Below, in pieces: positions 1,470-18,288 of a stretch of 43,654 nt of DNA; position 1 is the first letter of the stretch, and the number at the start of each line of letters is the position of its first letter. The stretch is from an uncultured bacterium (GTDB taxonomy: Bacteria > Cyanobacteriota > Vampirovibrionia > Gastranaerophilales > Gastranaerophilaceae), in contig CASFXY010000011.1 of assembly GCA_949298805.1 (NCBI GenBank), positions 29,784 through 73,437 on the forward strand. The letters are read 5' to 3'. The notes below the pieces were generated by a model. The model was not told where the DNA came from and did no database searches. It worked only from the letters and a program-made list of their open reading frames with translations. The translations under genes were made by a program, and so were the position numbers.

Positions 1470-2774
1470 ATGAAAAAAATTTACATAGGTATGAGTGCTG
1501 ATTTATTACACCCCGGGCACCTCAATATTATAGAGCAAGCAAGAAAACTTGGCGGAGAAATAATTGTAGGACTACTGACAGATAGCGCAATTGCAAGTTA
1601 TAAAAGACTCCCCTATATGTCTTTTGAGCAAAGAAAAATTGTAATAGAAAATGTAAAAGGAGTATCGCAAGTAATAGCTCAAGAGACTTTAGATTATGTT
1701 CCAAATTTAAAAAAAATAAAACCTGACTATGTTTTACACGGCGACGATTGGAAAGAAGGAGTACAAGCAAAAACAAGGCAAAGAGTGATTGAAGCAATGA
1801 AAGAGTGGGGCGGAAAAGTTATAGACATTCCTTATACTCAGGGTATATCTTCAACACAATTAAACAATATCCTAAAAGAAATAGGTACAACTCCGCAAAT
1901 AAGATGCGAAAGGCTAAGAAGACTACTTGCAAGCAAAGATATAGTAAGAATATGCGAAGCGCATAACGGATTAAGCGGGCTAATAGTAGAAAATACCTGC
2001 ATTACGAAAAATAATAAAAAATTTGAATTTGACGGTATTTGGATTTCCTCTCTTACGCAATCTGCTGCAAAAGCAAAACCTGACACAGGTTACCTCGATA
2101 CAACTTCAAGGCTTGAGATGATAAACGACATTTTAGATGTCACTACAAAATCAATCATTTATGACGGGGATAACGGTGGAGTGGAAGAACATTTTGTATT
2201 TACAGTAAAATCTCTTGAAAGACTTGGGATTTCGGCAATAATAATTGAAGATAAAACAGGATTGAAAAAAAATTCTCTTTTTGGTACCGAAGTTGAACAA
2301 ACTCAAGAAGACAAAGATATTTTTGCAAATAAAATTAAAGCCGGTAAACAAGCGCAAGTTACAAAACATTTTATGATAATTGCAAGAATTGAAAGTCTTA
2401 TATTAAAAAAAGGTATTAATGATGCCCTTATAAGAGCAAAAACCTACCTAGAAGCAGGTGCTGACGGCATTATGATACATTCTTGCTCAAATACATTTGA
2501 TGAAATAAAAGAATTTGCAAAAGAATACAACAAATTTGAAAATAGAAAACCCCTTGTGGTTGTGCCATCTTCATATCCTCAAGTAAAAGAAAGTGAGCTT
2601 ATTAAAAACGGTATTAATATGGTAATATATGCAAATCATCTTTTAAGGGCAGCTTATCCTGCAATGGTTAAAACCGCAGAATCAATTCTTAAAAATCAAA
2701 GATGTGAAGAAGCATCGGATGAATATTGCATGAAAATAAAAGATATAATAACCTTAATACCGGGGGCAAAATGA
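1470..2774 (+). CDS. Cytidylyltransferase-phosphoenolpyruvate mutase fusion
   Basis: 434 residues from the ATG at 1470 (a TTG two codons upstream is possible). Residues 1-135 form a TagD/CTP_transf_2-type nucleotidyltransferase with HPGH at 14-17 and ISST at 126-129. Residues about 155-415 form a PEP mutase of the isocitrate-lyase superfamily, with the diagnostic EDK-x5-NS motif at 260-269. PEP mutase converts phosphoenolpyruvate to phosphonopyruvate and makes the C-P bond. The fused domain is expected to form a CMP-activated phosphonate from CTP, like PntC. It overlaps the decarboxylase gene by ATGA, so the two are translationally coupled. The mutase call is firm; the exact cytidylyl acceptor is inferred. 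Confidence 0.93.
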
Positions 2775-4990
2775 TAAGTACAAAAATATTTTTTGATACC
2801 TTAAAAGACCAAGGGATTAATTTTTTCTGCGGAGTCCCCGATAGTCTTTTAAAGGACTTGTGTGCTTATATTTCTGATAATACAAACGCTCAAAACCATA
2901 TTGTATGCGCTAACGAAGGAAACGCAATTGCACTTTGTGCGGGTCATTATCTTGCAAATTCAACTCCCGGGCTTGTATATATGCAAAATTCAGGACTCGG
3001 AAATTGCATTAACCCTCTTTTGTCCTTGGTTGATGAAGAAGTTTATAAAATTCCTCTTTTAATGCTTATAGGTTGGAGAGGAGAAGTGGGCACCAAAGAC
3101 GAGCCGCAGCACATTAAACAAGGCAAGGTCAGTGATAAAATTTTGAAAGCATGTCAAATAGATTTTTCCATTTTGCCACAAGATAAAGACGAAGCGGTAA
3201 AATCGCTTATAAATGCTTGCAATTATATAAAAGAAAGCTCAAAACCATACGCTTTAATAATAAGAAAAGGAACTTTTGAACAATATACATTAAAAAATTC
3301 CAAAAAAACAAATTATAAAATCACGCGTGAATTTGCAATAAGTGAAGTTGTAAATTCAATAAGTGAAAATGCAATAATAATTTCAACTACAGGACAAATA
3401 TCAAGAGAACTTTATGAAATAAGGGAAAATGCAAACAAGCCTCATAACAAAGATTTCTTGACAGTCGGTTCTATGGGGCATGCAAGCTCTATTGCTCTTG
3501 GCATTGCATTAAAAGATAAAGAAAGGGAAGTATATTGTCTTGACGGCGACGGATCAATGATAATGCATTTAGGTTCATTGCCAGTAATTTCAAAAACTCA
3601 AAGCAAAAATTTTAAACATATAGTTTTAAATAACGAAGCTCACGACTCTGTTGGCGCACAGCCTACTTGCGCAGATAAAATAAATTTTGTAAAACTTGCA
3701 AAAGCATGCGGCTATAAAAATGTTTTTTGCGTAAAAAATGAAAACGAACTAAAAAGAATACTAAAAAGTTTTCATAAGTCACATGGTCCATCTTTGCTTG
3801 AAATTAAAGTCAAGTGCGGGGCAAGAACAAATTTGGGCAGACCAAAAGAAACACCTTGTGAAAATAAAAAATCTTTTATGGAATTCTTAAATGAAAATAC
3901 CGCATTTTTAAATGAAAATTCATTTAAAAATCTTTCAAAAATAATAAAAAAACATCAAGCAAAAAACATCCTTTTATTTTGTACAAAAAATTCTTTTAAA
4001 AGATTTGAAAAACTGATAAAAAATGAATTAAAAAATGTTAAATACAACATTTATAGCGACATCGAACCTAATCCAAAAGCGCAAGACGTCCAAAAAGCTT
4101 TGGAAAAAGAAAAAAGTTTTGATTTTATCGTTGCAATAGGCGGGGGAAGCGTTATAGATTTTGCAAAACTTTTCAGATTTTGCAATGACAATAAAATAAC
4201 ACCAGATAATGCAATTTCAAACAGCGGCAAAAATAAATTTACCCCCCTTGTTGCAGTACCAACAACAGCAGGAACAGGTGCAGAAGCTACAAAATTTTCA
4301 GTGATATATGTTAAAGGCAAAAAATATTCTTTTGAAAATCAAAATATGCTGCCTGATTATGCAATAATAGACGGACGATTTTCAAAAGACAGTCCGAGAT
4401 ACATAAAAGCATGTTGCGCTGCAGATGCATTATGTCAAGCCATAGAATCATATTGGTCGGTAAATTCCACCAAGGAAAGTAAATATTATGCAAAAATTGC
4501 AATGGAATTATGCAAGAGTTATTTGTGCTCTTTTGTAAATTCAAATAACAAACATTACGCTCAAAAGATGGCACAGGCAGCATTTTATTCTGGTAGAGCA
4601 ATCAACATTTCAAAAACTACTGCAGCACATGCTCTCTCGTATAAAATTACAACCGATTACAATATAGCCCATGGGCATGCGGTATCATTGAGCATTAAAG
4701 AACTTATGAAAACAAATGAACAAGCACAACAAGTAATTGATTTAAGGGGTGAAACATATTTAAAAAACACAATTCGGGAAATTAAACAAATTCTTGAAAT
4801 TAAAAATACAGACGATTATTTTGATAATTTATTTAAAAATATAGGTCTGGAACAAAATATTGCAAAGCTCGGAATAAAAGATGCAAATGAAATTGCACAA
4901 TCAGTAAATATACAAAGGCTTAAAAACAATCCTGTTGAGCTAACTAAAAAACAAATGGCAAAATTTTTCACAAATACACTTGAGAACTAA
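2771..4990 (+). CDS. Phosphonopyruvate decarboxylase-phosphonoacetaldehyde reductase fusion
   Basis: 739 residues from the ATG at 2771, which overlaps the previous stop and has GGGGG upstream. Residues 1-370 are a ThDP-dependent phosphonopyruvate decarboxylase: catalytic Glu49 in CANEGN, GDGS at 259-262, NN at 287-288. Residues about 385-739 are an iron-type (group III) alcohol dehydrogenase: GGGS at 457-460, PTTAGTGAE at 497-505, metal-site Asp552, His620, and His634/His636. The His four residues after the Asp in most Fe-ADHs is Gln556 here. Expected reactions are phosphonopyruvate to phosphonoacetaldehyde plus CO2, then NAD(P)H reduction to 2-hydroxyethylphosphonate. These steps are normally separate proteins. 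No AEP transaminase lies nearby, which favours hydroxyethyl- over aminoethylphosphonate. Confidence 0.9.
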
Positions 4991-4999
4991 GAGGTTAAA

Positions 5000-6145
5000 A
5001 TGCAAGAAGAACAACTCATTAATCAAATACCGCAAAACTCTAAAATTGCGATATATGGCGCAGGCACAGTAGGAAAAGAACTGCATAAATATATTGAAAA
5101 AAATCGCAATGACATCAAAATTATTTGTTATATTGACAATACTGCCCAAGGAGATTTTGAAGGAATAAAGATTTATAACCTTAAGAGCATTAATGAAATT
5201 AAAGAAGACATTGATTTAATTCTTATGAGTGTAAGAACAAAAAACCACGAACTTGTTGAACTTTTTTCTTTTTTCAATATTCCTTATTTATTAATTTCTC
5301 AAGAAACAGAAAAATATTGTAGAATTAAAAATTATTTAGCTGATATACAAAAGGTATCAGAAATTTTTGAAAGAGGCGAAGATAAAGCATTATATAATAT
5401 GGTATCTGAACTTTGGCTTGCAAAAAAACCGGATAAACTGAGAGAATACGTAATGGAAAAAAGCGGCATAAGTATATATGGACCCATAAGAAATTATCAC
5501 AAGCAATATTTTGAATACATTAATTATGATGCCATTAAAACAGTAATCGATGGAGGGGTATGTAACGCAATACAATTTTTTAATTATAAAAAGTTTTTTA
5601 AAAATTTAAAAGCAATATACGGGTTTGACCCAATGTATGAAACATTTAAAAACGATGCCTACGATTATCTTATAAAAAAAGAAATTCCTGAAGCAAAAAT
5701 AATATATCGCGGTTTATGGGATAAAGAAGAAGAACTTAATTTTATTGAAACACCGCACAACCGAGCAGGTTCTTATGTGCAAAATTCAAGTGCAATAAGA
5801 ACATCAAAAGATACTGATATTATATTAAAAATAAAAACTACATCAATTGACATATTTAAAAAACAAAATAATCTGCCCAAAACAGATTTTATTAAAATGG
5901 ATATTGAAGGTTCGGAACAAAAAGCACTGCTTGGTGCACAAAATACAATATTAAATGATCGCCCCCAGCTTGCAATTTCGATTTATCACAGCTTGGATGA
6001 TTTTACAAAAATACCGATTTATTTGTCTAATTTACTTAAAGATAAAAATTATAGTTTCAGATTGGGACATTACAGCCCTAAAATTCATGAAACAGTCTTG
6101 TATGCAATTCCAGAGGAAATATTAAAAGAGGAAAAAGATGTCTAA
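5000..6145 (+). CDS. FkbM-family methyltransferase with N-terminal Rossmann-like domain
   Basis: 381 residues, 9 nt after the decarboxylase stop, with gaggt as ribosome binding site. Residues about 10-105 are a small nucleotide-binding-like domain (IAIYGAGTVGKEL at 16-28, then CYIDN at 43-47). The same module recurs in three other proteins of the locus. Residues about 175-370 are an FkbM SAM-dependent methyltransferase, with VIDGGVCNA at 182-190 as the SAM loop and KMDIEGSE at 299-306 as the family signature. FkbM enzymes usually O-methylate sugars or lipids. In this operon the acceptor could be the glycan or its phosphonate. The last 8 nt overlap the next gene. Confidence 0.82.
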   Translation: MQEEQLINQIPQNSKIAIYGAGTVGKELHKYIEKNRNDIKIICYIDNTAQGDFEGIKIYNLKSINEIKEDIDLILMSVRTKNHELVELFSFFNIPYLLISQETEKYCRIKNYLADIQKVSEIFERGEDKALYNMVSELWLAKKPDKLREYVMEKSGISIYGPIRNYHKQYFEYINYDAIKTVIDGGVCNAIQFFNYKKFFKNLKAIYGFDPMYETFKNDAYDYLIKKEIPEAKIIYRGLWDKEEELNFIETPHNRAGSYVQNSSAIRTSKDTDIILKIKTTSIDIFKKQNNLPKTDFIKMDIEGSEQKALLGAQNTILNDRPQLAISIYHSLDDFTKIPIYLSNLLKDKNYSFRLGHYSPKIHETVLYAIPEEILKEEKDV

Positions 6146-6542
6146 TCCATACTTAGACTTTTATAACCAAATAAATACCCAAAAACAAATTAACTCACTT
6201 GCAAAAAAATTCAAGAATAAAAGGATTATTTTCTATGGTGCAGGTATAATGAGTAAAATCCTGTTTGAAAATTTCGATTTATCAAAATTAAATATAATCG
6301 CCATTTGCGATATGAAATATGAAAAATCCCAAAATGAAACTTTCTTTTCCTATCCGACCATATCTCCTGATGAACTCAAAACAGCTGATTTCGATGTTAT
6401 TTTCGTAAATCTTAAAAATTACGAAAGAGCAATAAATAATATAAAATATAATATTCTTATAAACACTAAAAATGAGGATAAAGAAGTAAAACCTTTTTTA
6501 AAGGTAACTCTATATTTTCTAATAAAGCAAATATTATTTTAA
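6138..6542 (+). CDS. Stand-alone Rossmann-like domain protein
   Basis: 134 residues, starting within the end of the methyltransferase gene. The core is RIIFYGAGIMSKILFENF, then IIAICDMKYEK and VIFVNLKNYE, i.e. a glycine-rich first loop followed by two beta strands, as in the PglD N-terminal domain or a CoA-binding fold. It matches the protein at 11181-11582 in length and order of motifs (YGAG, NYDLS, ICDIKY) and the N-terminal domains at 5000 and 8703. The short C-terminus FLKVTLYFLIKQILF is hydrophobic and may be a membrane-facing helix. No catalytic residues are recognisable and the function is unknown. Confidence 0.65.
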   Translation: MSNPYLDFYNQINTQKQINSLAKKFKNKRIIFYGAGIMSKILFENFDLSKLNIIAICDMKYEKSQNETFFSYPTISPDELKTADFDVIFVNLKNYERAINNIKYNILINTKNEDKEVKPFLKVTLYFLIKQILF

Positions 6543-6550
6543 GGTAAATT

Positions 6551-7627
6551 ATGAAAAAAAATTATAAACAGCTATACAAAGAGGCTATAAAGGAATACAA
6601 CGAATTTTACAAGACCATTGAAGCTGCAAACTTAAAACCCGCATCGGGAAATTTAAGAGAATATCAGCTTAAAACATTAAATTTTTGCAAAAAAATTTTA
6701 ATACAACTTGAAGAACTAAAATTATCTTATTTTCCAATCGGAGGAACATTAATAGGTGCACTAAGGCACAAAGGTTTTATTCCTTGGGATGACGATTTTG
6801 ATATCGGCATGATGAGAGATGATTATGAAATTTTTTTAAATTATTGCAAACAAAATTATATAGAAATACCGGCAAAACTCATATATTTTTCATCAGACAA
6901 TCGTTTTAAAATCTGGGATAAATTTCTCCATAAATACCCAAAACAATACATTTTCTCAAGAACTCCGCACCATACACAAATTATTTTCGGGACCAATATA
7001 GAAGATTGTGTAAACATAGATATTTTCCCCCACGACAGATATAGTGAAGATTATACCGGTGAACAATATAAGAATTACATAGATATTATAAATAAGAAAA
7101 AATATATACTCGATAATTATCAAAAAATTATTGATTTTTTTGATAACGAAAGAATAACAAATTCTTTTTTTGACAATAATAGCAAGAAAATATATTACGG
7201 ATTGGACAATATTGATAATTATATTCTCCAATTTAAAGGGTTTTTTAATGAAGATATGATTTTTCCGCTTAAGAAAATAAAATTTGAAAATACAGAAATT
7301 TCAATACAAAATAAGGGACTTGAATACGCACAAAGGCAATATAAAAATTGTTTACAAATGCCTTATGACATAATAATTTCTCCGCATTTGGATAATAAAT
7401 TTTTATCAGAAGAATTACACAAAAGCAAAATTTTTGATTTTAAATTAAAAGAAGTGCTTTTTAAACTTGCATACAAAAAAGAAACAACAAATGATTTTTG
7501 CAAAGATATTGCAATAAGTGAAATAAGAAAATTATTTAGAAAAAAACCGACAGAACAAGAAAAATACAAAACACTTTATAAAAAGCTAAATCAAAAACTT
7601 GAATTTTTAAAATCAATTAAATCTTAA
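6551..7627 (+). CDS. LicD-family phospho(no)transferase
   Basis: 358 residues. The LicD nucleotidyltransferase-like core is plain: FPIGGTLIGALRHKGF at 61-76, with Gly64-Gly65, then the metal-binding acidic run PWDDDFD at 78-84. LicD proteins move phosphocholine from CDP-choline onto sugars of teichoic acid or LPS. As the last gene of an operon with a cytidylyltransferase-PEP mutase, this one probably moves a phosphonate from its CMP form onto a glycan. The C-terminal 80 residues are Lys-rich with no known domain. The gene ends convergently on the GT2 gene with a 15-nt overlap. Confidence 0.87.
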   Translation: MKKNYKQLYKEAIKEYNEFYKTIEAANLKPASGNLREYQLKTLNFCKKILIQLEELKLSYFPIGGTLIGALRHKGFIPWDDDFDIGMMRDDYEIFLNYCKQNYIEIPAKLIYFSSDNRFKIWDKFLHKYPKQYIFSRTPHHTQIIFGTNIEDCVNIDIFPHDRYSEDYTGEQYKNYIDIINKKKYILDNYQKIIDFFDNERITNSFFDNNSKKIYYGLDNIDNYILQFKGFFNEDMIFPLKKIKFENTEISIQNKGLEYAQRQYKNCLQMPYDIIISPHLDNKFLSEELHKSKIFDFKLKEVLFKLAYKKETTNDFCKDIAISEIRKLFRKKPTEQEKYKTLYKKLNQKLEFLKSIKS

Positions 7628-8620
7628 ATACATTAATATAACTTTATAAGTTTTTACTGCATTTGCGTAAAAACAATAGAGATTGTAGGGCATAGTACAG
7701 ATTTTATTGAAGATTCTTAAGTCAAATTCTATTATTTTTAAATCATTTATGTAGTTTTTCTTTATGTAGCAAAAAAGTTTACGCATATTTTTGTACCATA
7801 TTTTTTTATCCTGAGCAGTAAACTTTTCATAGTAATTAAGCGCAACTTTAATCTTTCTTGCTGCAAAATAAGCTTTAAATACTTGCCAATTATCGAAATT
7901 TCTAAGCTCTTTCTCGCATTCAAGGAAATTTTCAAATATAATATCGGCATATTTTGCCGCATTTGCAGTGGCTGAAGCCTCATGTAGTCTGTAATTATAA
8001 ATATAATCGTTAAGAATGCTCATTCTGCTTGATTGAGAAAGGGCGGAGAAATGTGGCAAATGGTCTTCCCAAAACTTGTTCTTTCCATAGTGATAACCTA
8101 TTTTATCAAGAAATGATTTTTTATATATTTTAAAAGGAAACGCAGGTATATAAAAAAGACAATCTTTAACATCCGTAGGACTAAAAACTTTGTCGTCAAA
8201 TCCTCTTATATATTTAAGAGCATAAGGATATTGTGTTTTGCTACCGGTTTTTTGCCTGTATGTATTTACACAAAAAAATACCACATCAGAGTCATCTTTC
8301 TCCATTTTATCGTAAAGCTTCTGAAGTGCACCCTGCTCAAACCAATCATCGCTGTCCGCAAAAATGATATATTTTCCCCTTGCAAGTTCAAGTCCTTTGT
8401 TTCTGGCAATTCCTTGACCTTCATTCTCTTTTGAAATAACAACTATACGATTATCTTTTTCTTTGTAAGAATTTAAAATCTCCAAAGAATTATCTTTTGA
8501 ACCATCATTTACACAGATAATCTCAAACTTTTTAAAAGATTGACAAAGTATACTGTCTAAGCATTGTTTAAGATATTTTCCCGTATTATAAACAGGAATA
8601 ATAATTGAAATTAAAGGCAT
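7613..8620 (-). CDS. Glycosyltransferase family 2
   Basis: 335 residues on the opposite strand to the phosphonate operon. The GT-A fold is clear: ISIIIPVYNTGKYLKQCLDS at the N-terminus, CVNDGSKDNS near residue 38, and the DxD-type metal site FADSDDW near 90. The C-terminal half has no membrane helices, so this is a soluble or peripheral enzyme of cell-surface glycan assembly. Donor and acceptor cannot be told. Its 3' end overlaps the LicD gene by 15 nt, and its 5' end faces the methyltransferase gene at 8703 across an 82-bp gap. Confidence 0.88.
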   Translation of the reverse strand: MPLISIIIPVYNTGKYLKQCLDSILCQSFKKFEIICVNDGSKDNSLEILNSYKEKDNRIVVISKENEGQGIARNKGLELARGKYIIFADSDDWFEQGALQKLYDKMEKDDSDVVFFCVNTYRQKTGSKTQYPYALKYIRGFDDKVFSPTDVKDCLFYIPAFPFKIYKKSFLDKIGYHYGKNKFWEDHLPHFSALSQSSRMSILNDYIYNYRLHEASATANAAKYADIIFENFLECEKELRNFDNWQVFKAYFAARKIKVALNYYEKFTAQDKKIWYKNMRKLFCYIKKNYINDLKIIEFDLRIFNKICTMPYNLYCFYANAVKTYKVILMYLRFN

Positions 8621-8702
8621 AAATAGATATTTGCATACAAATCTTTATTTGTAAATAATTTTCTGTTAAAATTAAGCACAAATAACTTTTGCGAGAAAAT
8701 TG

Positions 8703-9893
8703 ATGGATGATTTTTTAAACAGAATAAAATATGGTTGTAAAATTGCAATTTTTTCAACATCCATTATTGCAAAATACTTTTTTGAAATAATTTCAAAGGA
8801 ACGTCCGGATATAGAAGTTATCTGTTTTATAGATTCAAACAAAACAGGTTATTTTCAAGGGGTTAAAATACTCTCGGCGCAAGATGCTGTTAAAAACAAA
8901 CAAATAAAACTCTTTATAATAGCTTCAATTTCAAATGCAAAATTGCTTAAAAATATTCTTCTCTCCTATAAGAAAGTAAAAACGCTTGTTTTAAACAAGA
9001 AAGCTGCAATGGAAATTAATAATCGAATTGCCAAAGATGCAGGCATTGCTTTTTCCAAAGGTGGCATTCAAGAGCGTTATCATTGCGGTCATTACTATTC
9101 TGCTGTCCCATCGGAACAAGATATTGAAGAAGCAATAGCGCAAAAGGAATTTGATGAAAAACAGCTGAAATTCGAAGGTATTGATTTAAATTTAACTTGC
9201 CAGCTTGAAAATCTGAATTATTTTGAAAACGCATACGAAAAAATAAAAATTCCACAATACAAAATTGAAGAAAAACTCTATTATCTTGATAACATTTGGT
9301 TTCATCCATACGATGCTTATTGCCTTTTTGGAATGATATTAAAAAATAAACCATCAAGAATTATTGAAATAGGATCAGGCTATTCAACAGGACTTATGCT
9401 TGATATCAATAAAGAATTTTTTGGAGAAAAAATAAAACTTATTTGCATAGAACCTAACCCAAAAAGGCTTAAAGAAGTATTAGGCAGGGATTTCGAAAAA
9501 ATTGAAATACACGAAAAAAGACTACAGGATATTGACTTATCCATATTTAAAGAATTAAAAGATAATGACATACTTTTTATTGATTCAAGCCATGTCGCAA
9601 AAATAAACAGTGATGTATTAAAAATATTTTTTGAGATTTTGCCCAATATTAATAAAAATGTAATTGTGCATTTTCATGATATATTCAACAATTTTTCATA
9701 TCCTAAAGAATGGCTTATTCAAAGAAGATGTTGGAATGAAGCCTTTATGTTGAGAGCATTTTTAATGTATAACCAAAATTTTAAAATAGAATTTTACTGC
9801 GATTTTATAAAAGCATATTTAAAAGAAAATAACATACAAACAAAATTACCCATAAATAAAGGTAGCGGCAGTATCTATATCAGGAAATTATAA
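8703..9893 (+). CDS. Class I SAM-dependent methyltransferase with N-terminal Rossmann-like domain
   Basis: 396 residues from the ATG at 8703 (TTG one codon earlier is possible). Residues 1-100 carry the locus-specific small domain in weaker form (IAIFSTSIIAKYFF, then CFIDSNKTGYFQG). Residues about 195-370 are a methyltransferase of the Methyltransf_24 type: IIEIGSGYSTG at 220-230, CIEPNP at 248-253, and DILFIDSSH at 289-297. Residues 100-195 match nothing I know. It likely methylates a sugar of the surface polymer. It is transcribed alone and meets the TagF-like gene tail to tail with a 6-nt overlap. Confidence 0.75.
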   Translation: MDDFLNRIKYGCKIAIFSTSIIAKYFFEIISKERPDIEVICFIDSNKTGYFQGVKILSAQDAVKNKQIKLFIIASISNAKLLKNILLSYKKVKTLVLNKKAAMEINNRIAKDAGIAFSKGGIQERYHCGHYYSAVPSEQDIEEAIAQKEFDEKQLKFEGIDLNLTCQLENLNYFENAYEKIKIPQYKIEEKLYYLDNIWFHPYDAYCLFGMILKNKPSRIIEIGSGYSTGLMLDINKEFFGEKIKLICIEPNPKRLKEVLGRDFEKIEIHEKRLQDIDLSIFKELKDNDILFIDSSHVAKINSDVLKIFFEILPNINKNVIVHFHDIFNNFSYPKEWLIQRRCWNEAFMLRAFLMYNQNFKIEFYCDFIKAYLKENNIQTKLPINKGSGSIYIRKL

Positions 9894-11177
9894 AAGCATT
9901 TTTAATAAATCGCTTACAATATTTTGCGCAGCATAATTATTTTGGCAAAAAAGTTCATCGTATAAATTTAGGCGTTGTTCTTTTTTAGTATCTATACCCC
10001 TTAAAACAACTTCATCAAGGATTTGTTCCAATTCTTTAATATCTTGCACATTATAATAAGTTTCAACAATTTTAGCAACAGACGGATTAAAAGGCATTGC
10101 ACCATTTGATTTAAGGTGAATAAGCGGTTTTTTTGTTAAAAAATATTCCGTTTCAAACGAACCGCAATCCGTAATCATTGCTTTTGAAGATTTAAACATG
10201 TCAAGATAATTCCCGCTCTCACACAGCTTGCCGATTTTTTCCCATTCTTTCCAATATTGTTCAATTTCCTGTGTGCTCATATAATTGTTATTTTTCAGGT
10301 AACCTTTGAGGCACGGATGTGGTTTAAATACCCAATTTATTTCAGGATGTTTTTTTGCATAATCCAACATAAATTGTCCACACCATAAAAAAGTACCCCA
10401 AAAAAGAACATTTTTATTGTCAACTGACCAATGAGGGGCATATATTACATAATTTTTATTTTCAAATTCCTTTTCTCTGTTTAAATAGAAAAAATCAAGT
10501 GCAGGATGACCGACTGATTTTATATTCACACCTTTATTCGGTGCATTTTCACAATAAAAATCTTTTATCGCATCGTTTAACACATAATGATTTTGGACAT
10601 ACTGATGAAATCTTAAAAAATATTCCGTAGGCGAAATTGATGTTGCAATAAAATAGGGAACATAGCATGTAAGGGCAAATTTAGAACATACTACCGGTCC
10701 TTGAGAAGTTTCTACATACCAAGGATGTTGATAAAAAATTATATCAGGCTTGGGTTCCATTTGCTCAAAAGGAATAAAATTATTTCTTTTATAAGCATAC
10801 AAGACTCTCATATTTTGCAATTTAAAAAAATCAAAAATCTTTTCAAGTTCATTAGGTTTTTGAAAGTTGAAATTATCTTTTGGCGCGCAATTTTTAGTCA
10901 CAAAAATGTATGGAATAAAATTTTCGCTTTTTTCCAATAAATCGTATAAACTTTGACATTTCCACTTGGCTTGGTCATAAACATAGAAAGCAACAACCAA
11001 TTTTCTCTTTTTTATTTCTTTTTTAAGTTTATTTGTAATTTTTTTCTTGTTATTTTTTATATAGTTTAAATTTTGGGCAATCTTTTTTTTATATCCCCAT
11101 TTCCTTATTGCATATTTGTATTTTACTGGAACAAACAGCGCAATTGTCCTTGCAACTTGATAATAAGGCAAGTGCAT
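9888..11177 (-). CDS. CDP-glycerol glycerophosphotransferase family protein (TagF/TagB-like)
   Basis: 429 residues. The C-terminal half has the family's GT-B signatures: VIYAPHWS at 244-251, WVFKPHP at 282-288 and MITDCGSFETEYF at 334-346, the last giving the nucleotide-binding Ser/Glu region. An N-terminal basic stretch (about 20-60) suits membrane association. Known members polymerise or prime poly(glycerol phosphate) chains from CDP-glycerol, and relatives in Gram-negative capsule loci build phosphate-linked polymers. No CDP-glycerol cytidylyltransferase other than the PEP-mutase fusion is in the window. It follows the small Rossmann gene with a 3-nt gap, so the pair is an operon. Confidence 0.8.
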   Translation of the reverse strand: MHLPYYQVARTIALFVPVKYKYAIRKWGYKKKIAQNLNYIKNNKKKITNKLKKEIKKRKLVVAFYVYDQAKWKCQSLYDLLEKSENFIPYIFVTKNCAPKDNFNFQKPNELEKIFDFFKLQNMRVLYAYKRNNFIPFEQMEPKPDIIFYQHPWYVETSQGPVVCSKFALTCYVPYFIATSISPTEYFLRFHQYVQNHYVLNDAIKDFYCENAPNKGVNIKSVGHPALDFFYLNREKEFENKNYVIYAPHWSVDNKNVLFWGTFLWCGQFMLDYAKKHPEINWVFKPHPCLKGYLKNNNYMSTQEIEQYWKEWEKIGKLCESGNYLDMFKSSKAMITDCGSFETEYFLTKKPLIHLKSNGAMPFNPSVAKIVETYYNVQDIKELEQILDEVVLRGIDTKKEQRLNLYDELFCQNNYAAQNIVSDLLKMLL

Positions 11178-11180
11178 AAA

Positions 11181-11582
11181 TTACTTACTCCAAATTTCTT
11201 TTATTAATTGCCACAATGAAACTTTAGCAAGAGGATAAATCAATGTTTTTGTTTTATAAAAAACATTACTTTCAAAATCCTCAATTATTCCAAGATACTT
11301 AAGCGTAGCAATAAGTACAACATCAGGGTTATAATTTAAAATATTTTCCTTAGATATTATGTTATAGCCTAAAAACTTTTGCCCCTCTTGTTCTTTAGAA
11401 TATTTAATATCACAAATACCTGTTATATCAAGTGCCGACAAATCATAATTTTCATTAATATATTGGAATAGCGAACCGGCACCATAAATGATAATCTTTT
11501 TATTTTTTAATTTTTTATTTAGTTTTTTCAGGTATTTATCAAAACCTATTTTCTTAAGGTATTCTTGTAAATCAGTACTCAT
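11181..11582 (-). CDS. Stand-alone Rossmann-like domain protein (second copy)
   Basis: 133 residues, a paralogue of the protein at 6138-6542. Shared marks are KIIIYGAGSLFQYI, NYDLSALDITGICDIKY and a hydrophobic tail (LAKVSLWQLIKEIW). One copy precedes LicD and the other precedes the TagF-like transferase, in both cases directly upstream on the same strand. That pairing suggests a shared partner role, such as binding a nucleotide-linked donor, but this is inference and no enzyme residues are visible. Confidence 0.63.
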   Translation of the reverse strand: MSTDLQEYLKKIGFDKYLKKLNKKLKNKKIIIYGAGSLFQYINENYDLSALDITGICDIKYSKEQEGQKFLGYNIISKENILNYNPDVVLIATLKYLGIIEDFESNVFYKTKTLIYPLAKVSLWQLIKEIWSK

Positions 11583-11650
11583 TAACTAATTCCGAAATAA
11601 AACAATTATTCTTAATTTTAACAAAATAAATATATTATTTCAAATTATCT

Positions 11651-12229
11651 TTATTGAATTTCATTTTCTATTACCTTAATAACTTTTGCGGGGACTCCTG
11701 CAACAATGGTATTTTGTGCAACATCTTTTGTGACAACTGCACCAGCTGCAATAATTGCCCCGTCTTGAATTTGAACTCCGCCCAAAATCGTAGCATTTGA
11801 ACCTATCCAGACATTATTTCCTATCCTGACCGGTTTTGGCAAAATTGATGCTCTTTTGTGGGGATTTTGGTTATGATTTAAGGTCGCAATTACCACATTA
11901 TGCCCTATTAAAACATTATCGCCAATTACAATTCCGCCCTGATCCTGAAAGTGACAACAGGAATTTATAAAAACATTTTTTCCTATTGTTATATTTTTAC
12001 CGCAATCGGTATAAAATGGCGGAAACAATCTGAAAGAATAGTCGACTTGTTTACCTGTGAGTTGAAAAAATAATTCACACACACGTTTTGGCGGATTATA
12101 CTTGCAATTAAGCTCACAAGTCAATTTCATGGCTTCATCAGCCAAAAAAGACATATATCTATGAATTTCGCTACCTGCAATAACTTCACGACCTGAGTTT
12201 AAATGTTCTAAAAAAATGTTTAAATTCAT
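11651..12229 (-). CDS. Hexapeptide-repeat O-acetyltransferase (LacA/NodL/Maa type)
   Basis: 192 residues from the ATG at 12229, 7 nt after the cupin stop; an upstream in-frame ATG at 12268 would overlap the cupin gene. The left-handed beta-helix repeats run from about residue 75 ([60 protein letters not shown]) and end with the typical AGVPAKVIK. The catalytic His sits in ATLNHNQNP. These enzymes acetylate sugars or galactosides with acetyl-CoA. It is co-transcribed with the cupin and could be under the divergent LysR regulator. Confidence 0.88.
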
Positions 12230-12236
12230 AAAGCAC

Positions 12237-12623
12237 CTACTTATATTCATTGTTTGAAACAGGCTCAAGCCAAGTTGTTTGATTATTTGGAATATTTGTT
12301 TCTATCGAAATATGGGCAAAATCACAATCAGGAGAAGCGCCATGCCAGTGAATAACATCCTTTGGAATTTTTACCACATCGCCTGCTTTTAAAATTCGAA
12401 TTTCCTTGCCTTTTTCTTGATATCTGCCTTCACCTGCGGTTACAAGAAGGATTTGACCTCCTGAATGCTTATGCCAATTTGTCCTTGCACCTTTTTCAAA
12501 AGTAACGTTACCTATTGATGAATTCCACATCTCATCCTTTTGAACAAGCATATTCAAATACGTAGTACCTGTAAAATATTTTCCGTAAGGATTAATTTCA
12601 CCCCGATTAAACACTTGCTGCAC
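12237..12623 (-). CDS. Small cupin-domain protein
   Basis: 128 residues. I place the start at the GTG at 12623 because GGAGG sits 8 nt upstream and conserved sequence begins there ([19 protein letters not shown]). A GTG at 12680 would add 19 residues. The cupin metal site shows as NWHKHSGGQ, then a second motif with [11 protein letters not shown]. Relatives occur next to LysR regulators, often fused to or beside carboxymuconolactone-decarboxylase-like or flavodoxin genes; their substrate is mostly unknown. It is the first gene of the minus-strand unit facing the LysR gene. Confidence 0.83.
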
Positions 12624-12869
12624 AATATTTTCCTCCGTTATATCTTTAAAAATATATAGGGCTTTTAAGAGTATTTTCACTGCCGTCGGTTATCAAAATT
12701 GCTAAAACCAACAATTCTCTTGTTTTATTATCCAATTTACCTATTGCAAAAATCTCGCCAAAAAGCAAATAAGATAAAAGTTGTTATCTTTTTACGACCC
12801 ATATTAACACCTGTGTATTTTATAATTATTTATCATGTTTTGTTAAATAGCAAATACTTATATATTATA

Positions 12870-12909
12870 ATTTTATATGCTTGACAGGCATATAAAATAC
12901 AAATATTAT
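12870..12909 (+). promoter_or_regulatory. Promoter embedded in a perfect palindrome upstream of the LysR gene
   Basis: ATTTTATATGC (12870-12880) and GCATATAAAAT (12888-12898) form a perfect 11-bp inverted repeat around TTGACAG. The spacer holds a consensus -35 TTGACA (12881-12886); 17 nt later is TATTAT (12904-12909). The start point would fall at about 12916, the A of the LysR ATG. LysR boxes are dyads of this size, so this is a good candidate autoregulatory operator. Confidence 0.6.
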
Positions 12910-12915
12910 AAAACT

Positions 12916-13791
12916 ATGGAATTAAGAGTTTTAAAATATTTTTTAGCAGTCGCACAAGAAGAAAACATCTCAAAAGCAGCACAATTATTGCATATAACAC
13001 AACCGACCTTATCTCGTCAATTAATTGATTTAGAACTTGAACTTAAAACAAAACTTTTGATACGCGGCAAAAGGAACAAAAAAATAACGCTAACGGACGA
13101 AGGCAAACTTTTAAAAGCGAGAGCTCAAGAAATCATTGAACTTGCAAACAAAACAAAAACAGAATTTTTATTCGATGAAAAAAATATAATAGGCGATATT
13201 TATATAGGCGGAGGCGAAACTGATGCAATGAGAATTGTTGCAAAAACAGCCAAAAAACTTGCTAAAAAATATCCTGATATAAAATACAACTTATACAGCG
13301 GCAACGGTGAAGATGTAAAAGAAAAATTAAATAAAGGGTTATTGGATTTTGGAATTTTTATAGAACCTTTTGACAAAAAAGAATTTGATTTTATAAGTTT
13401 TACACAAAAAGACCATTGGGGCATTTTAATGAGAAAGGATTCACATCTTGCAAAAAAAGATTTTATAACACCGCAAGACTTGAAAGGTATACCAATTCTT
13501 TCTTCAAGACAATTTCTTGTTAAAAATTTATTATCAGGTTGGCTCGGCTATGATTTTGAAAATCTTAATATAGTCGGCACATACAATCTTTTATTCAATG
13601 CCTCAATTATGGTTGATGAAGGTTTTGGTTATGCTCTTTGTATAGATAAACTTATTAATCTTACCGGTAAAAGCAACTTGTGTTTTAAACCGCTAAAACC
13701 GACCCTTGAAGCAGGAATTTTAATTGCTTGGAAAAAAAACGCGCCTCTTTCAAAATGCGCAAAATTATTCTTAAATACATTGCAAAATTAA
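12916..13791 (+). CDS. LysR-family transcriptional regulator
   Basis: 291 residues from the ATG at 12916 (an earlier in-frame ATG at 12877 lies inside the operator). Residues 1-60 are the winged helix-turn-helix: MELRVLKYFLAVAQEENISK, then AAQLLHITQPTLSRQL. From about residue 90 there is a LysR substrate-binding domain (GDIYIGGGETDAMRI, then GILMRKDSHLA). There is no Shine-Dalgarno sequence, fitting the predicted start point at the ATG. It probably controls the divergent cupin-acetyltransferase unit and its own gene. The photolyase follows 46 nt downstream. Confidence 0.92.
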   Translation: MELRVLKYFLAVAQEENISKAAQLLHITQPTLSRQLIDLELELKTKLLIRGKRNKKITLTDEGKLLKARAQEIIELANKTKTEFLFDEKNIIGDIYIGGGETDAMRIVAKTAKKLAKKYPDIKYNLYSGNGEDVKEKLNKGLLDFGIFIEPFDKKEFDFISFTQKDHWGILMRKDSHLAKKDFITPQDLKGIPILSSRQFLVKNLLSGWLGYDFENLNIVGTYNLLFNASIMVDEGFGYALCIDKLINLTGKSNLCFKPLKPTLEAGILIAWKKNAPLSKCAKLFLNTLQN

Positions 13792-13837
13792 TAATTAATA
13801 CAATGTTTTAAAAAATTTAGCGTTTCATACTTATTTT

Positions 13838-15100
13838 ATGCAAAGAATTAAAAGAAATACTCTTTTAAATTACATCCCAAAAAATCTTGAAACCGAAAAG
13901 AAAGTAAACCCCGCAAGAATATATGATTTCAATTATCAAGAAATCAAAAAAGGGCAAATTGTTTACCTTATGGAAAGAAATATTCGTGCGCAGGACAATT
14001 TTGCACTGCAGTTTTGCGAAGAAATATCAGAAGAATTAAATTTACCATATAAAATAATATGCAGTGTAAATCCTTGTATACACAAGCCAAAAGAAGATTT
14101 TATAAATCAGCAAATTAATTGTATAAAAAATGAATTTTTAAAAATTAAACGTGATTTTTTAATTTTTAAAGGAAATAAAAACGAATTACTAAAATATTTG
14201 AAAGAAACACAAACAAGTATACTTATTTTAGATTTTAATCCTATTTTTGACAGGGCATATTTAAAAAAGGCACCATTTAAAATATATGAAATTGATTCGC
14301 ACAATATTATTCCTGCAAGATTTTTATCCGACAAGCAAGAATACGGTGCATCAACAATAAGGAGAAAAATATATAAAAATATTTACTCTTTTTTGACTCA
14401 TTACAAACACCAAACACCATTAGCCCAACAAGTGCAAAATTTTATAGACAATAAATTGCCTTTTTATGAAAAATTTAGAAATAATCCCATAAAAAATGTG
14501 CAATCCGGACTATCAAAATATTTAAATTTAGGTTTTATCTCTCCTCAAAGAATTGCTCTGGAAGTTATTAGAGCAGATGTTGACAATGAAAATAAAGAAG
14601 CTTTCTTTGAAGAATTAATAGTGCAAATGAGCCTTGCTGACAACTTTTGTTTATATTGCAATAATTTTAAAAGCTTAAAATGTATACCAAACTGGGCAAA
14701 AAATACAATTTTAAAACACAAAAACGATTTTAGGGAGTATATTTATTCAATAAAAGAACTTGAAGATGCAAAAACACACGACAAACTTTGGAATGCTACG
14801 CAAAAACAACTGATAAACGAGGGCACAATACACGGATATTTAAGAATGTATTGGGCAAAACAATTAATTAAGTGGACAAAAACAGCACAAAATGCACTTG
14901 AAGTTGCAATTTACTTGAATGACAAATATGCCTTTGATTCCCCCTCGCCAAACGGATATGCGGGGATTTTATGGTCAATAGGCGCTTTGCACGACAGGGC
15001 TTTTGCAGACAGATATTTAACAGGTAAAATTCGAACTATGACCTTCGCTTCTATAAGCAAAAAATTTGATATAAATTTGTACATTAAAAAATATCAATAA
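13838..15100 (+). CDS. Class II DNA photolyase (deoxyribodipyrimidine photo-lyase)
   Basis: 420 residues, slightly shorter than the usual 440-460. The C-terminal FAD domain carries the class II signatures: HGYLRMYWAKQLIKWT, then LNDKYAFDSPSPNGYAG, ILWSIGALHDRAF and GKIRTM. The N-terminal half has the antenna-type Rossmann fold (QIVYLMERNIRAQDNFAL, ILILDFNP). It should split UV-induced cyclobutane pyrimidine dimers in blue light using reduced FAD. It is unexpected in a light-free anaerobe. It could be transcribed with the LysR gene. There is no clear ribosome binding site. Confidence 0.9.
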   Translation: MQRIKRNTLLNYIPKNLETEKKVNPARIYDFNYQEIKKGQIVYLMERNIRAQDNFALQFCEEISEELNLPYKIICSVNPCIHKPKEDFINQQINCIKNEFLKIKRDFLIFKGNKNELLKYLKETQTSILILDFNPIFDRAYLKKAPFKIYEIDSHNIIPARFLSDKQEYGASTIRRKIYKNIYSFLTHYKHQTPLAQQVQNFIDNKLPFYEKFRNNPIKNVQSGLSKYLNLGFISPQRIALEVIRADVDNENKEAFFEELIVQMSLADNFCLYCNNFKSLKCIPNWAKNTILKHKNDFREYIYSIKELEDAKTHDKLWNATQKQLINEGTIHGYLRMYWAKQLIKWTKTAQNALEVAIYLNDKYAFDSPSPNGYAGILWSIGALHDRAFADRYLTGKIRTMTFASISKKFDINLYIKKYQ

Positions 15101-16404: not shown

Positions 16405-17054
16405 TATCTTTCCTCCCGTTTTACAATATAATCGACAAAAAGTCCCGGAATAACAACCTCATTAGGGTCGAGACAATCCACAACTTCATCAGCCTGAACA
16501 ATTACTGTATCAGCTGCCGTTGCCATAACTGTATTAAAATTTCTTGTTGTACCAAAAAAAGAAACATTACCGAATTTATCAACTTTTGTGCCGTAAATTA
16601 GAGCAAAATCAGCACTAAGAGGTTTTTCAAAAATAAATTTTTTGCCGTCTACTTCCAGTATTTTTTTATTTTCCTCTAAAATTGTTCCAATTCCCGTTTG
16701 TGTCAAAACACCGCCCAAACCCGCGCCTTTTGCACGAATTTTTTCCACAAGAGTACCCATTGGGATTAACTCTACTTCTATTTCACCATCATGCATTTGT
16801 TTCCCTGTTTCGGGATTTGTGCCTATATGAGCAGCTATAACTCTTTTTGCAAGTTTATTTGTAATAAGCTTTCCTTTATCAATATTGGGGTAAGAGGTAT
16901 CATTGCAAATTAACGTAAGATTTTTTTTACCCTGTCTTACAAGTTCGTCAATCAGCTTGTCAGGCGCACCACAACTCAAAAAACCGCCTATCATTATAGT
17001 GGCACCGTCTTTAATTAAGTCTATTGCATCCTTTATACTTGTTATTTTTTCCAT
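16404..17054 (-). CDS. 3-oxoacid CoA-transferase subunit A (AtoD/CtfA/ScoA type)
   Basis: 216 residues from the ATG at 17054; the longer frame to 17111 would run into the porin gene. MEKITSIKDAIDLIKDGATI then IMIGGFLSCGAPDKLID is the standard N-terminus with the CoA-binding GGF loop. GAGLGGVLTQTGIGT and DFALIYGTKVDKFGN follow in order. It is the alpha partner of the adjacent beta subunit. It lies 31 nt after the porin stop with no hairpin between, so porin, atoD and atoA may share one transcript. Confidence 0.93.
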   Translation of the reverse strand: MEKITSIKDAIDLIKDGATIMIGGFLSCGAPDKLIDELVRQGKKNLTLICNDTSYPNIDKGKLITNKLAKRVIAAHIGTNPETGKQMHDGEIEVELIPMGTLVEKIRAKGAGLGGVLTQTGIGTILEENKKILEVDGKKFIFEKPLSADFALIYGTKVDKFGNVSFFGTTRNFNTVMATAADTVIVQADEVVDCLDPNEVVIPGLFVDYIVKREER

Positions 17055-17085
17055 AATTCTTGAAAAAAATATACCACAAATTTTT

Positions 17086-18288
17086 TTATAATACAATTTG
17101 TGTGCCGACAATTAACTTGTGTGAATCAGGCTTTGCATCATTTTGACAATATACATAATTAAAAATCAGCTTTAGCGCTTGTCCTTTTAAATAATAATTA
17201 ATACCCGCACTATACTCTCTTTGATTATTATCATGCTTTGTTTTATCCGGATTAAATTCATCATAACGTGCAAGAAGCTCAATTTTTTTCGTCAAATGAT
17301 AAGCAAGCGTAGCATAAAAACCCTCTGCACCTTTGTTTGTCGGTCCACTGCCACCGTTTGAACCGTCAGAATTTGCATATTCTGCCCTCGCCCAGAATTT
17401 TTTGTACTCATAGCTCAGAGCCGCACCTGTCATAAAATAATCAACGGAATGCCTCCTGCCTGCTACAATACCGCCTCCTGCAACAATTTTACCCCATTTG
17501 CCGTCTGTCTTGCCCAGTGGTTTGATATTAACCCAGCCGTCAAATTCAAGGCCGGGGAAAAATTCTTGAAAGAAAGTGTCTGAACTATAACCGCCAAAAT
17601 CATAATCCGCAAGAGAATAATCTCCTCTAACCCTTAAGCCAAATTTTCTTACATTTGCAAGATTTCTTGAAATTTGTGAACGGGCAACAAAAGGCAAAGT
17701 ATACGGAGATTGCGCGCCCTCATAACCCACACCTGGGCGAGAATTACCTATTAAAACATTGTGATGAGGTATTCTATTTGTTTCAAAATAAGCATCTTGT
17801 ATTAACTGTTGGAAAAACCCATGCGCATGAGTTGGGGTCGGATCTAACATTAAACGGAAACCTTCTTTTCCGCCCCTGAATTTACCGTCGAATATAATAT
17901 TTATCAGAGCCATATTAAATTTTGTATCAGTGTCGGAATTTTCATTCATTTGGGTGGTAATATTTCCTTGCAGTGCTACCCAAGTATGAAAACTTTCCAA
18001 GGGCCCCTTGTCAAATGTCATTGTTAATTGCTTTTTTAACAGTTGCGAAGGCACATCAGTACGCTCAATCTGCAATTCCCATACATCTTTTGGCGCACTT
18101 AATAAATTTGATAAAAAAGTATCTTTTTCTTTTTGAATATCTTGTTCAAATTCTTCTTTTGTTTGACCTGTTATATTTTCTATAAAGTCGCCGTCAGGAT
18201 TTTGTTCAAGCGTAATTTCTTCCTCAACGGCAAAAACTTGAGGAATAAATATAAAAAGAAAAATAATACTCAATAAAATCTTTTTCAT
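17086..18288 (-). CDS. OprP/OprO-family outer-membrane porin
   Basis: 400 residues. The signal peptide is MKKILLSIIFLFIFIPQVFA, cleaved after VFA. The mature chain shows alternating beta-strand patterns and family signatures near the C-terminus: GFYATLAYHLTKKIELLARY, REYSAGINYYLKGQALKLIF and the last strand KLIVGTQIVL, with a hydrophobic final residue. Family members are 16-strand trimeric porins; P. aeruginosa OprP is phosphate-selective, but many relatives carry other anions. Beside a FocA channel and a CoA-transferase it may pass small carboxylates. This is direct evidence for an outer membrane. It starts 9 nt after a terminator-like hairpin and has no clear ribosome binding site. Confidence 0.85.
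   Translation of the reverse strand: MKKILLSIIFLFIFIPQVFAVEEEITLEQNPDGDFIENITGQTKEEFEQDIQKEKDTFLSNLLSAPKDVWELQIERTDVPSQLLKKQLTMTFDKGPLESFHTWVALQGNITTQMNENSDTDTKFNMALINIIFDGKFRGGKEGFRLMLDPTPTHAHGFFQQLIQDAYFETNRIPHHNVLIGNSRPGVGYEGAQSPYTLPFVARSQISRNLANVRKFGLRVRGDYSLADYDFGGYSSDTFFQEFFPGLEFDGWVNIKPLGKTDGKWGKIVAGGGIVAGRRHSVDYFMTGAALSYEYKKFWARAEYANSDGSNGGSGPTNKGAEGFYATLAYHLTKKIELLARYDEFNPDKTKHDNNQREYSAGINYYLKGQALKLIFNYVYCQNDAKPDSHKLIVGTQIVL

Follow-up and report, generated by a model that had tools for sequence, protein, structure and literature searches.

The 43,654-nucleotide stretch analysed here, called the window throughout (G000:C11:29784-73437), belongs to a genome of 1.68 Mb in 32 contigs of Candidatus Gastranaerophilales and carries a putative phosphonate operon of five plus-strand genes. 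Gene 1 (1470-2774) encodes a Fom1-type fusion of a cytidylyltransferase (CyTase, residues about 1-138) and a phosphoenolpyruvate (PEP) mutase (PepM, about 145-434). Gene 2 (2771-4990) encodes a phosphonopyruvate decarboxylase (PPD) fused to an iron-type alcohol dehydrogenase (ADH). Gene 3 (5000-6145) encodes an FkbM methyltransferase (PF05050) with a Rossmann-like N-terminal domain, for which O-methylation of a glycan or phosphonate is predicted. Gene 4 (6138-6542) encodes a small Rossmann-like protein with a sub-threshold family match only, directly 5' of gene 5 (6551-7627), which encodes LicD, a candidate transferase for the CMP ester of 2-hydroxyethylphosphonate (HEP), with the nucleotidyltransferase motif GTLIGALRHKGFIPWDDDFD. 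The successive junctions are a 4-nt overlap, a 9-nt gap, an 8-nt overlap and an 8-nt gap. An earlier sequence-only reading had described five plus-strand genes overlapping or at most 10 nt apart, and its coordinates, junctions and domain assignments were confirmed. A terminator-like hairpin was predicted from the sequence 5' of the operon at 1229-1256 (no strand assigned), with the arms AAAAAGAGACC and GGTCTCTTTTT.

A search for the five-gene order in related genomes, as the sequence-only reading had proposed, found it in six loci of two genera (the window, L019, L118, L119, L120 and L122; L, G and C denote loci, genomes and contigs). Because all six keep the same order, the arrangement is not regarded as a product of chance. 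The FkbM gene is present in all six and absent from L123, and a gene 4-type protein lies directly 5' of LicD in L123, L165, L166, L167, L169 and L170 as well. The taxonomic order was surveyed in 383 Gastranaerophilales genomes, which are draft metagenome-assembled genomes, and counts were made by hand. Gene 1 matches at E <=1e-60 were obtained in 52 of the 383. Identity to gene 1 was bimodal, with 36 loci (35 genomes) at 76-100% and 20 loci at 47-61%; HEP type was defined as at least 76% identity, giving 35 HEP genomes and 348 others. A second sample, the 80 named loci, consisted of the best 80 of at least 464 relatives and is biased to the HEP type, since these are the best-scoring ones. L028, L029, L030, L031 and L033 lie on the same contigs as L119, L125, L022, L159 and L161; they were kept in the 80-locus counts and excluded from the tree, the CyTase identities and the comparisons within 7 kb.

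The CyTase half of gene 1 gave as its top match in the Protein Data Bank (PDB) 5x3d (E 7e-57), labelled phosphoenolpyruvate phosphomutase, which we take to be the CyTase domain of Fom1. The domain order of gene 1, an N-terminal CyTase (PF01467, CTP_transf_like) fused to PEP mutase, is that of Fom1, and the two CyTase domains share 63% identity. The PepM half scored 374.6 bits against TIGR02320 (cut-off 319.55). The motif EDKxxxxxNS was found in gene 1, in the form stated in the accessible text of PMC6697681, where CMP-HEP is given as the product of Fom1, made for fosfomycin. Identity to the Fom1 CyTase had a median of 64% among ADH-linked relatives (n=101, L139 and L151 being excluded) and of 32% among Gastranaerophilales CyTases linked to a transaminase for aminoethylphosphonate (AEP) (n=10). 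K45 was kept in 100 and D75 in all 101 of the ADH-linked CyTases, and both are present in Fom1; neither was kept in any of the 10 transaminase-linked ones. The three Fom1-like CyTases with a transaminase each alter one residue (L083, K45W; L104, D75S; L105, K45S). L139, which is ADH-linked and outside the 101, keeps K45 and has D75S, against the pattern. K45 and D75, two of the columns that separate the groups, may determine whether HEP or AEP is used, as judged from the alignment. On a FastTree tree of 131 fusions, which leaves aside L153 and L154 (no fused CyTase-PepM frame), the 40 Gastranaerophilales sequences of the HEP type cluster together (support 96), apart from a group of 17 (support 100) made up of the other Gastranaerophilales type.

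The PPD half of gene 2 scored 489.3 against TIGR03297 (equivalog cut-off 312.5). The ADH half scored 131 against PF00465 (cut-off 31.3), and PF25137 was also matched. Its predicted metal-site residues are D552, Q556, H620 and H634; presumably the three usual ligands are kept and the fourth is Gln. Of 77 aligned ADHs, 53 share the Gln of position 556 and 23 have His there. The position of the gene suggests that the ADH is a predicted phosphonoacetaldehyde reductase. PPD and ADH were found near the fusion in 68 of the best 80 of at least 464 loci and ADH without PPD in one; three had an AEP transaminase without ADH (L083, L104 and L105), none had both, and eight had neither, seven of these with less than 2 kb downstream. 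The two enzymes are fused in four of the 80, namely three named Gastranaerophilales and L028 (G154, same order). In the survey of the order, ADH was fused to PPD in 25 of the 36 HEP loci and adjacent in the other 11. A module of CyTase-PepM, PPD and ADH peculiar to this lineage was rejected, as the combination is widespread among the named loci. Among the 20 non-HEP loci of the order, L151 (61%) has ADH and a Fom1-like CyTase; the other 19 comprise 10 with an AEP transaminase, four with a CyTase-bearing protein of 475-479 aa, one with ADH (L139) and four left unassigned.

The steps from PEP to HEP and on to CMP-HEP, as the sequence-only reading had drawn them, are thus supported by the domain models of genes 1 and 2 and by the Fom1-like CyTase. 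The same reading had preferred HEP to AEP for want of an AEP transaminase. That AEP is the product, made by a transaminase encoded at another place, and that the dehydrogenase has some other function, is very improbable. The best match in the genome, a class-V aminotransferase at C16, shares 27% identity with the AEP transaminase of L027 and scored 217.6 against TIGR03301, under the cut-off of 360.8. Its best-fitting model was BhcA, also under the cut-off (316 against 650). The presence of this aminotransferase favours AEP, as do L083, L104 and L105, which pair a Fom1-like CyTase with an AEP transaminase; the transaminase-linked CyTases of the order, with their low identity to Fom1, speak against it. 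AEP was rejected, as no transaminase above the cut-off was present in the genome. A free phosphonate of the fosfomycin kind is still less probable. In its favour, the opening steps match early fosfomycin biosynthesis (for Fom1, see PMC6697681); against it, the conserved neighbours are glycan-type transferases. No radical-SAM/B12 methylase appeared in general scans of the window proteins at 151-21437, a genome-wide search not having been made; a fosfomycin-like product was rejected, as the late genes were not seen in the locus. Separately, a radical-SAM protein fused to a CyTase was observed in L026 (5024-6460, minus strand), between CyTase-PepM and decarboxylase. Similar open reading frames make the same fusion likely in L137, L138 and L153; these four are the non-HEP loci with a CyTase-bearing protein of 475-479 aa. 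Neither AEP transaminase nor ADH was seen in these loci, which perhaps represent a third fate of the phosphonate.

Gene 5 scored 90.1 against PF04991 (cut-off 22.6). The core residues of its nucleotidyltransferase motif are invariant across 14 LicDs, and it was at this motif that a profile of the 14 matched fukutin-related protein (6kaj; E 4e-8). The genome of the window has three LicD genes, all within its two phosphonate loci. LicD proteins at least 54% identical to gene 5 were found in 13 of 35 HEP genomes and none of the 348 others (p=3e-15, kinship ignored). In six of the 13 the gene sits on a different contig from gene 1, and in G144 both are inside long contigs. The next two LicDs (41-43%) are also from HEP genomes; below 41%, both kinds of genome are represented. 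Any LicD was found in 40 of the 52 PepM genomes of the order and in 106 of the 331 others (p=1e-9, kinship ignored), and within the same genus (11 survey genomes) in 3/3 with and 0/8 without PepM. The sequence-only reading had tied LicD to the phosphonate pathway, and all 13 genomes with a gene-5-type LicD do carry the HEP pathway. Its choice of LicD as the transferase holds in that LicD is a pathway-linked candidate, and fails in that LicD is not the only one: the gene at 9888-11177, which lies beyond the interval described in that reading, had been overlooked. LicD as sole transferase was rejected, as eight HEP genomes (G117, G122, G135, G209, G217, G218, G235 and G282) have an orthologue of that gene and no LicD; G189 and G032 have neither.

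This second candidate CMP-HEP transferase (9888-11177, minus strand) is a TagB/CpsA-like protein related to PF04464, assigned from a sub-threshold PF04464 match and from co-occurrence. PF04464 matched three of the four members of its alignment A6 at E <=0.01 (best 4.8e-7), and the protein itself matched a profile of 28 similar proteins from other loci (E 8.1e-29). The WHG motif of TagF-type polymerases was not found in its sequence. According to the accessible text of PMC11666461, Cps7A has Tyr in place of the TagF motif His, and a primase-like role is therefore conceivable for the window protein. PDB searches with the protein and its profile gave weak matches only, taken as chance, and prion matches at E >=0.03 were discarded likewise. 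At 50% identity or more, 24 of the 35 HEP genomes have an orthologue, against 15 of the 348 others (p=9e-20, kinship ignored).

A different substrate for LicD and the TagB/CpsA-like protein was considered here: the two would transfer glycerol phosphate, phosphocholine or a comparable group, and HEP would be attached by another enzyme. In 11 of 21 HEP-negative stretches the TagB/CpsA-like gene has a TagD-like CyTase no more than about 2.3 kb away, and in none of 24 HEP stretches was one seen; the 21 were chosen from the better orthologue matches, and both groups include several short contigs. At E <1e-40 the TagD-like profile matched all three HEP-negative genomes searched, of which only G195 is independent (G245 and G005 are rows of the profile), and two of 19 HEP genomes (G217 and G124). 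The other 17, the genome of the window included (third hit 2.5e-15), gave no TagD-like match at this threshold. One of three TagD-like proteins scanned passed the cut-off for glycerol-3-phosphate cytidylyltransferase. The 15 HEP-negative genomes with the TagB/CpsA-like orthologue, the TagD-like neighbours, the two HEP genomes that also carry a TagD-like CyTase, the 106 PepM-negative genomes with LicD and a LicC/LicA-like fusion in L004, the second phosphonate locus of the genome, are all in favour of this alternative. The restriction of gene-5-type LicD to HEP genomes (13/13) argues against it, as do the 17 HEP genomes and the fact that no other maker of a CDP-alcohol was found among the scanned window proteins (151-21437). 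On balance it is regarded as unlikely.

Transferase genes also stand beside the phosphonate loci more widely. A gene directly 3' of the HEP block was in reach in 59 of the best 80 loci (21 had none); it matched PF04464 in 15, LicD in 13 and CDP-OH_P_transf in 2 (E <=0.001; a fused protein may count twice). Directly 5' of the block (63 loci), LicD was found in 6 loci, and no more than 2 can have PF04464 there. The two CDP-alcohol phosphatidyltransferases would fit the placement of HEP on a membrane lipid, as a phosphonolipid, and not on a glycan. Gene 5 also matches, weakly, the LicD-type diacylglycerol cholinephosphotransferase model NF045866 (35 against 225). This outcome is nevertheless judged quite improbable, as the scanned window proteins (151-21437) include no CDP-OH_P_transf and the locus is surrounded by glycosyltransferase and methyltransferase genes.

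Of 103 HEP-type loci, 40 have a PF04464-like protein no more than 7 kb from PepM; in the 22 AEP/other-type loci, several of which have short flanks, none was found (p=9e-5). Against only the 13 transaminase-bearing loci (0/13), the value was p=0.004. The profile used was iterated and seeded from HEP loci only, and may miss others or have drifted; the weakest member of the resulting set scores only 23 bits. The AEP/other-type loci were also checked with Pfam: among 99 of their proteins (at least 200 aa, encoded up to 7 kb from PepM; PPD, AEP transaminase, PepM and LicD excluded), PF04464 was outside the 25 commonest families, so that it accounts for at most two. MobA-like proteins made up 15 of the 99, and in the accessible text of PMC6697681 MobA-like is the family of the AEP-specific PntC enzymes. 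L139, L153 and L154 were classed as AEP/other. The 8 of 80 loci without ADH or transaminase were excluded from both classes; LicD was found within 7 kb in two of them and a TagB/CpsA-like protein in none.

From these results, the operon probably makes CMP-HEP and puts HEP on a surface glycan, as far as can be judged from sequence comparison. By family, the C-terminal PEP mutase of gene 1 would convert PEP to phosphonopyruvate, the decarboxylase half of gene 2 would yield phosphonoacetaldehyde and its iron-type dehydrogenase half would reduce this to HEP. The Fom1-type CyTase half of gene 1 would then join HEP and CTP to CMP-HEP. LicD and the TagB/CpsA-like protein, two cytidine-nucleotide-dependent transferases, would pass HEP to the glycan. 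O-methylation of the product or of its sugar would probably fall to the FkbM protein. That both transferases serve the HEP pathway is inferred from gene order and co-occurrence. The end point would be a glycan, as opposed to a lipid or a free phosphonate; surface-glycan attachment of HEP is favoured because the CpsA/CpsC-like pair here has CMP-HEP as its evident cytidine donor. A doubtful but conceivable extension is a linker or polymer of the teichoic-acid kind with HEP instead of glycerol phosphate, in which the TagB/CpsA-like protein would act as primase, placing a single HEP from CMP-HEP on a glycan, and LicD (CpsC-like) would extend a chain of HEP esters. HEP, unlike AEP, has a free hydroxyl that can extend a chain, which would explain why TagB/CpsA-like proteins occur near HEP-type loci and were not found near AEP/other-type ones; the replacement would also explain a nearby TagD-like CyTase only where HEP is absent.

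Several observations weigh against the synthesis of a HEP-bearing glycan by this route. The ADH half of gene 2 falls far short of the phosphonate ADH model TIGR03405 (147, cut-off 423.7), which the stand-alone ADH of L036 (258.6) does not reach either, and Q556 replaces one usual His of the metal site. The TagB/CpsA-like protein is under the PF04464 cut-off (20.1 against 22.1 bits), and 11 of 35 HEP genomes have no orthologue of it at 50%. LicD is absent from 10 of the 35 and present in the 106 genomes without a gene 1-type PepM; within 7 kb it was found in 34 of 103 HEP-type and 11 of 22 AEP/other-type loci (p=0.15). Of the 40 HEP loci from the order, 15 showed neither transferase within 7 kb, as did 22 of the 63 from outside it, some of these being cut by contig ends. 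All co-occurrence counts are uncorrected for kinship. G310 has the ADH half of gene 2 alone and lacks gene 1, and was classed as non-HEP. L139 (5773-8901, minus strand) has the only ADH beside a non-Fom1-type CyTase-PepM among the order loci examined, and L129 (14057) has an AEP transaminase-like gene at most 7 kb from a HEP locus, the sole locus of 136 bearing both.

The genes 3' of the operon are also in part conserved. A family-2 glycosyltransferase gene (7613-8620, minus strand) is convergent with gene 5 and overlaps its end by 15 nt, and a relative adjoins the TagB/CpsA-like gene in several related loci. The following gene (8700-9893, plus strand) encodes an accessory Methyltransf_24 protein with a Rossmann-like N-terminal stretch, also present in L019, L171 and L177. 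Directly before the TagB/CpsA-like gene lies a gene for a small Rossmann-like protein (11181-11582, minus strand) that resembles gene 4 and gave no family match in the Pfam scan. Each of the two candidate transferases is thus preceded by a small Rossmann-like protein. A small cupin is encoded at 12240-12680.

In L004, a second CyTase-PepM and PPD-ADH pair is 80% and 54% identical to that of the window, and its neighbours are two LicDs, a TylF-like methyltransferase and an ABC transporter. L004 DNA at 10903-14050 was 93.1% identical over 3155 bases to G127 (L127), of another genus, whereas the window and L019, of the same genus, were 77.1% identical over 10240 bases. Because the identity across genera exceeds that within the genus, a recent horizontal transfer would be the simplest reading of the L004 pair. 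At 16616-18175, L004 encodes the LicC/LicA-like protein, a MobA-like nucleotidyltransferase fused to an APH-type kinase. Elsewhere, and judged by eye, HEP pairs adjoin murG/dcw-looking genes in L023 (5993-9522) and lpxC/fabZ-looking genes in L024 (1328-4858). L005 has an open reading frame (9527-9880) in which two similar stretches are separated by a run of masked bases.

The closest known chemistry is that of Fom1 and early fosfomycin biosynthesis in Streptomyces wedmorensis, with which the window shares the CyTase-PEP mutase fusion leading to CMP-HEP. The fosfomycin pathway also has a decarboxylase and an iron-type reductase, and its cluster contains a Fom3-type methylase and an HppE-type epoxidase. 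In the window, decarboxylase and reductase are one protein and transferases follow, and the late fosfomycin enzymes were not seen in the locus. HEP-bearing phosphonoglycans of Glycomyces and Stackebrandtia were reportedly described by Yu et al. in 2014. These are actinobacterial exopolysaccharides, and the likeness to the window is that of HEP on a polysaccharide.

The Pnt and other phosphonoglycan clusters in the accessible text of PMC6697681 likewise combine PEP mutase and cytidylyltransferase with LicD-like transferases nearby, and of 1485 Ppm proteins 23.6% carry a fused PF01467 domain. The tested MobA-like PntC activates AEP, whereas the window is of the Fom1 type, with a reductase substituting for the AEP transaminase. 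In the same text, the route by which an activated phosphonate comes to modify the surface was called unknown (Rice et al. 2019, PMC6697681), and the accessible parts of the literature searched name no enzyme that moves a CMP-phosphonate to a glycan. Among the papers found on Gastranaerophilales or Melainabacteria with phosphonate, none was on surface carbon-phosphorus (C-P) compounds, as far as titles and the beginnings of abstracts tell. The locus gives two testable candidates for CMP-phosphonate transferases, and C-P chemistry is predicted on the surface of Gastranaerophilales. In capsule priming in Actinobacillus pleuropneumoniae, the transition transferases CpsA (PF04464) and CpsC (LicD, PF04991) belong to a single pathway and act on CDP-glycerol, according to the accessible text of PMC11666461. 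The evident cytidine donor in the window is CMP-HEP instead, and its PF04464-like protein is below the family cut-off. The locus also offers a reason why a TagB/CpsA-like protein might pair with HEP and not with AEP. The chemistry itself is already known; what is new is the fused decarboxylase-reductase and the pairing of partners.

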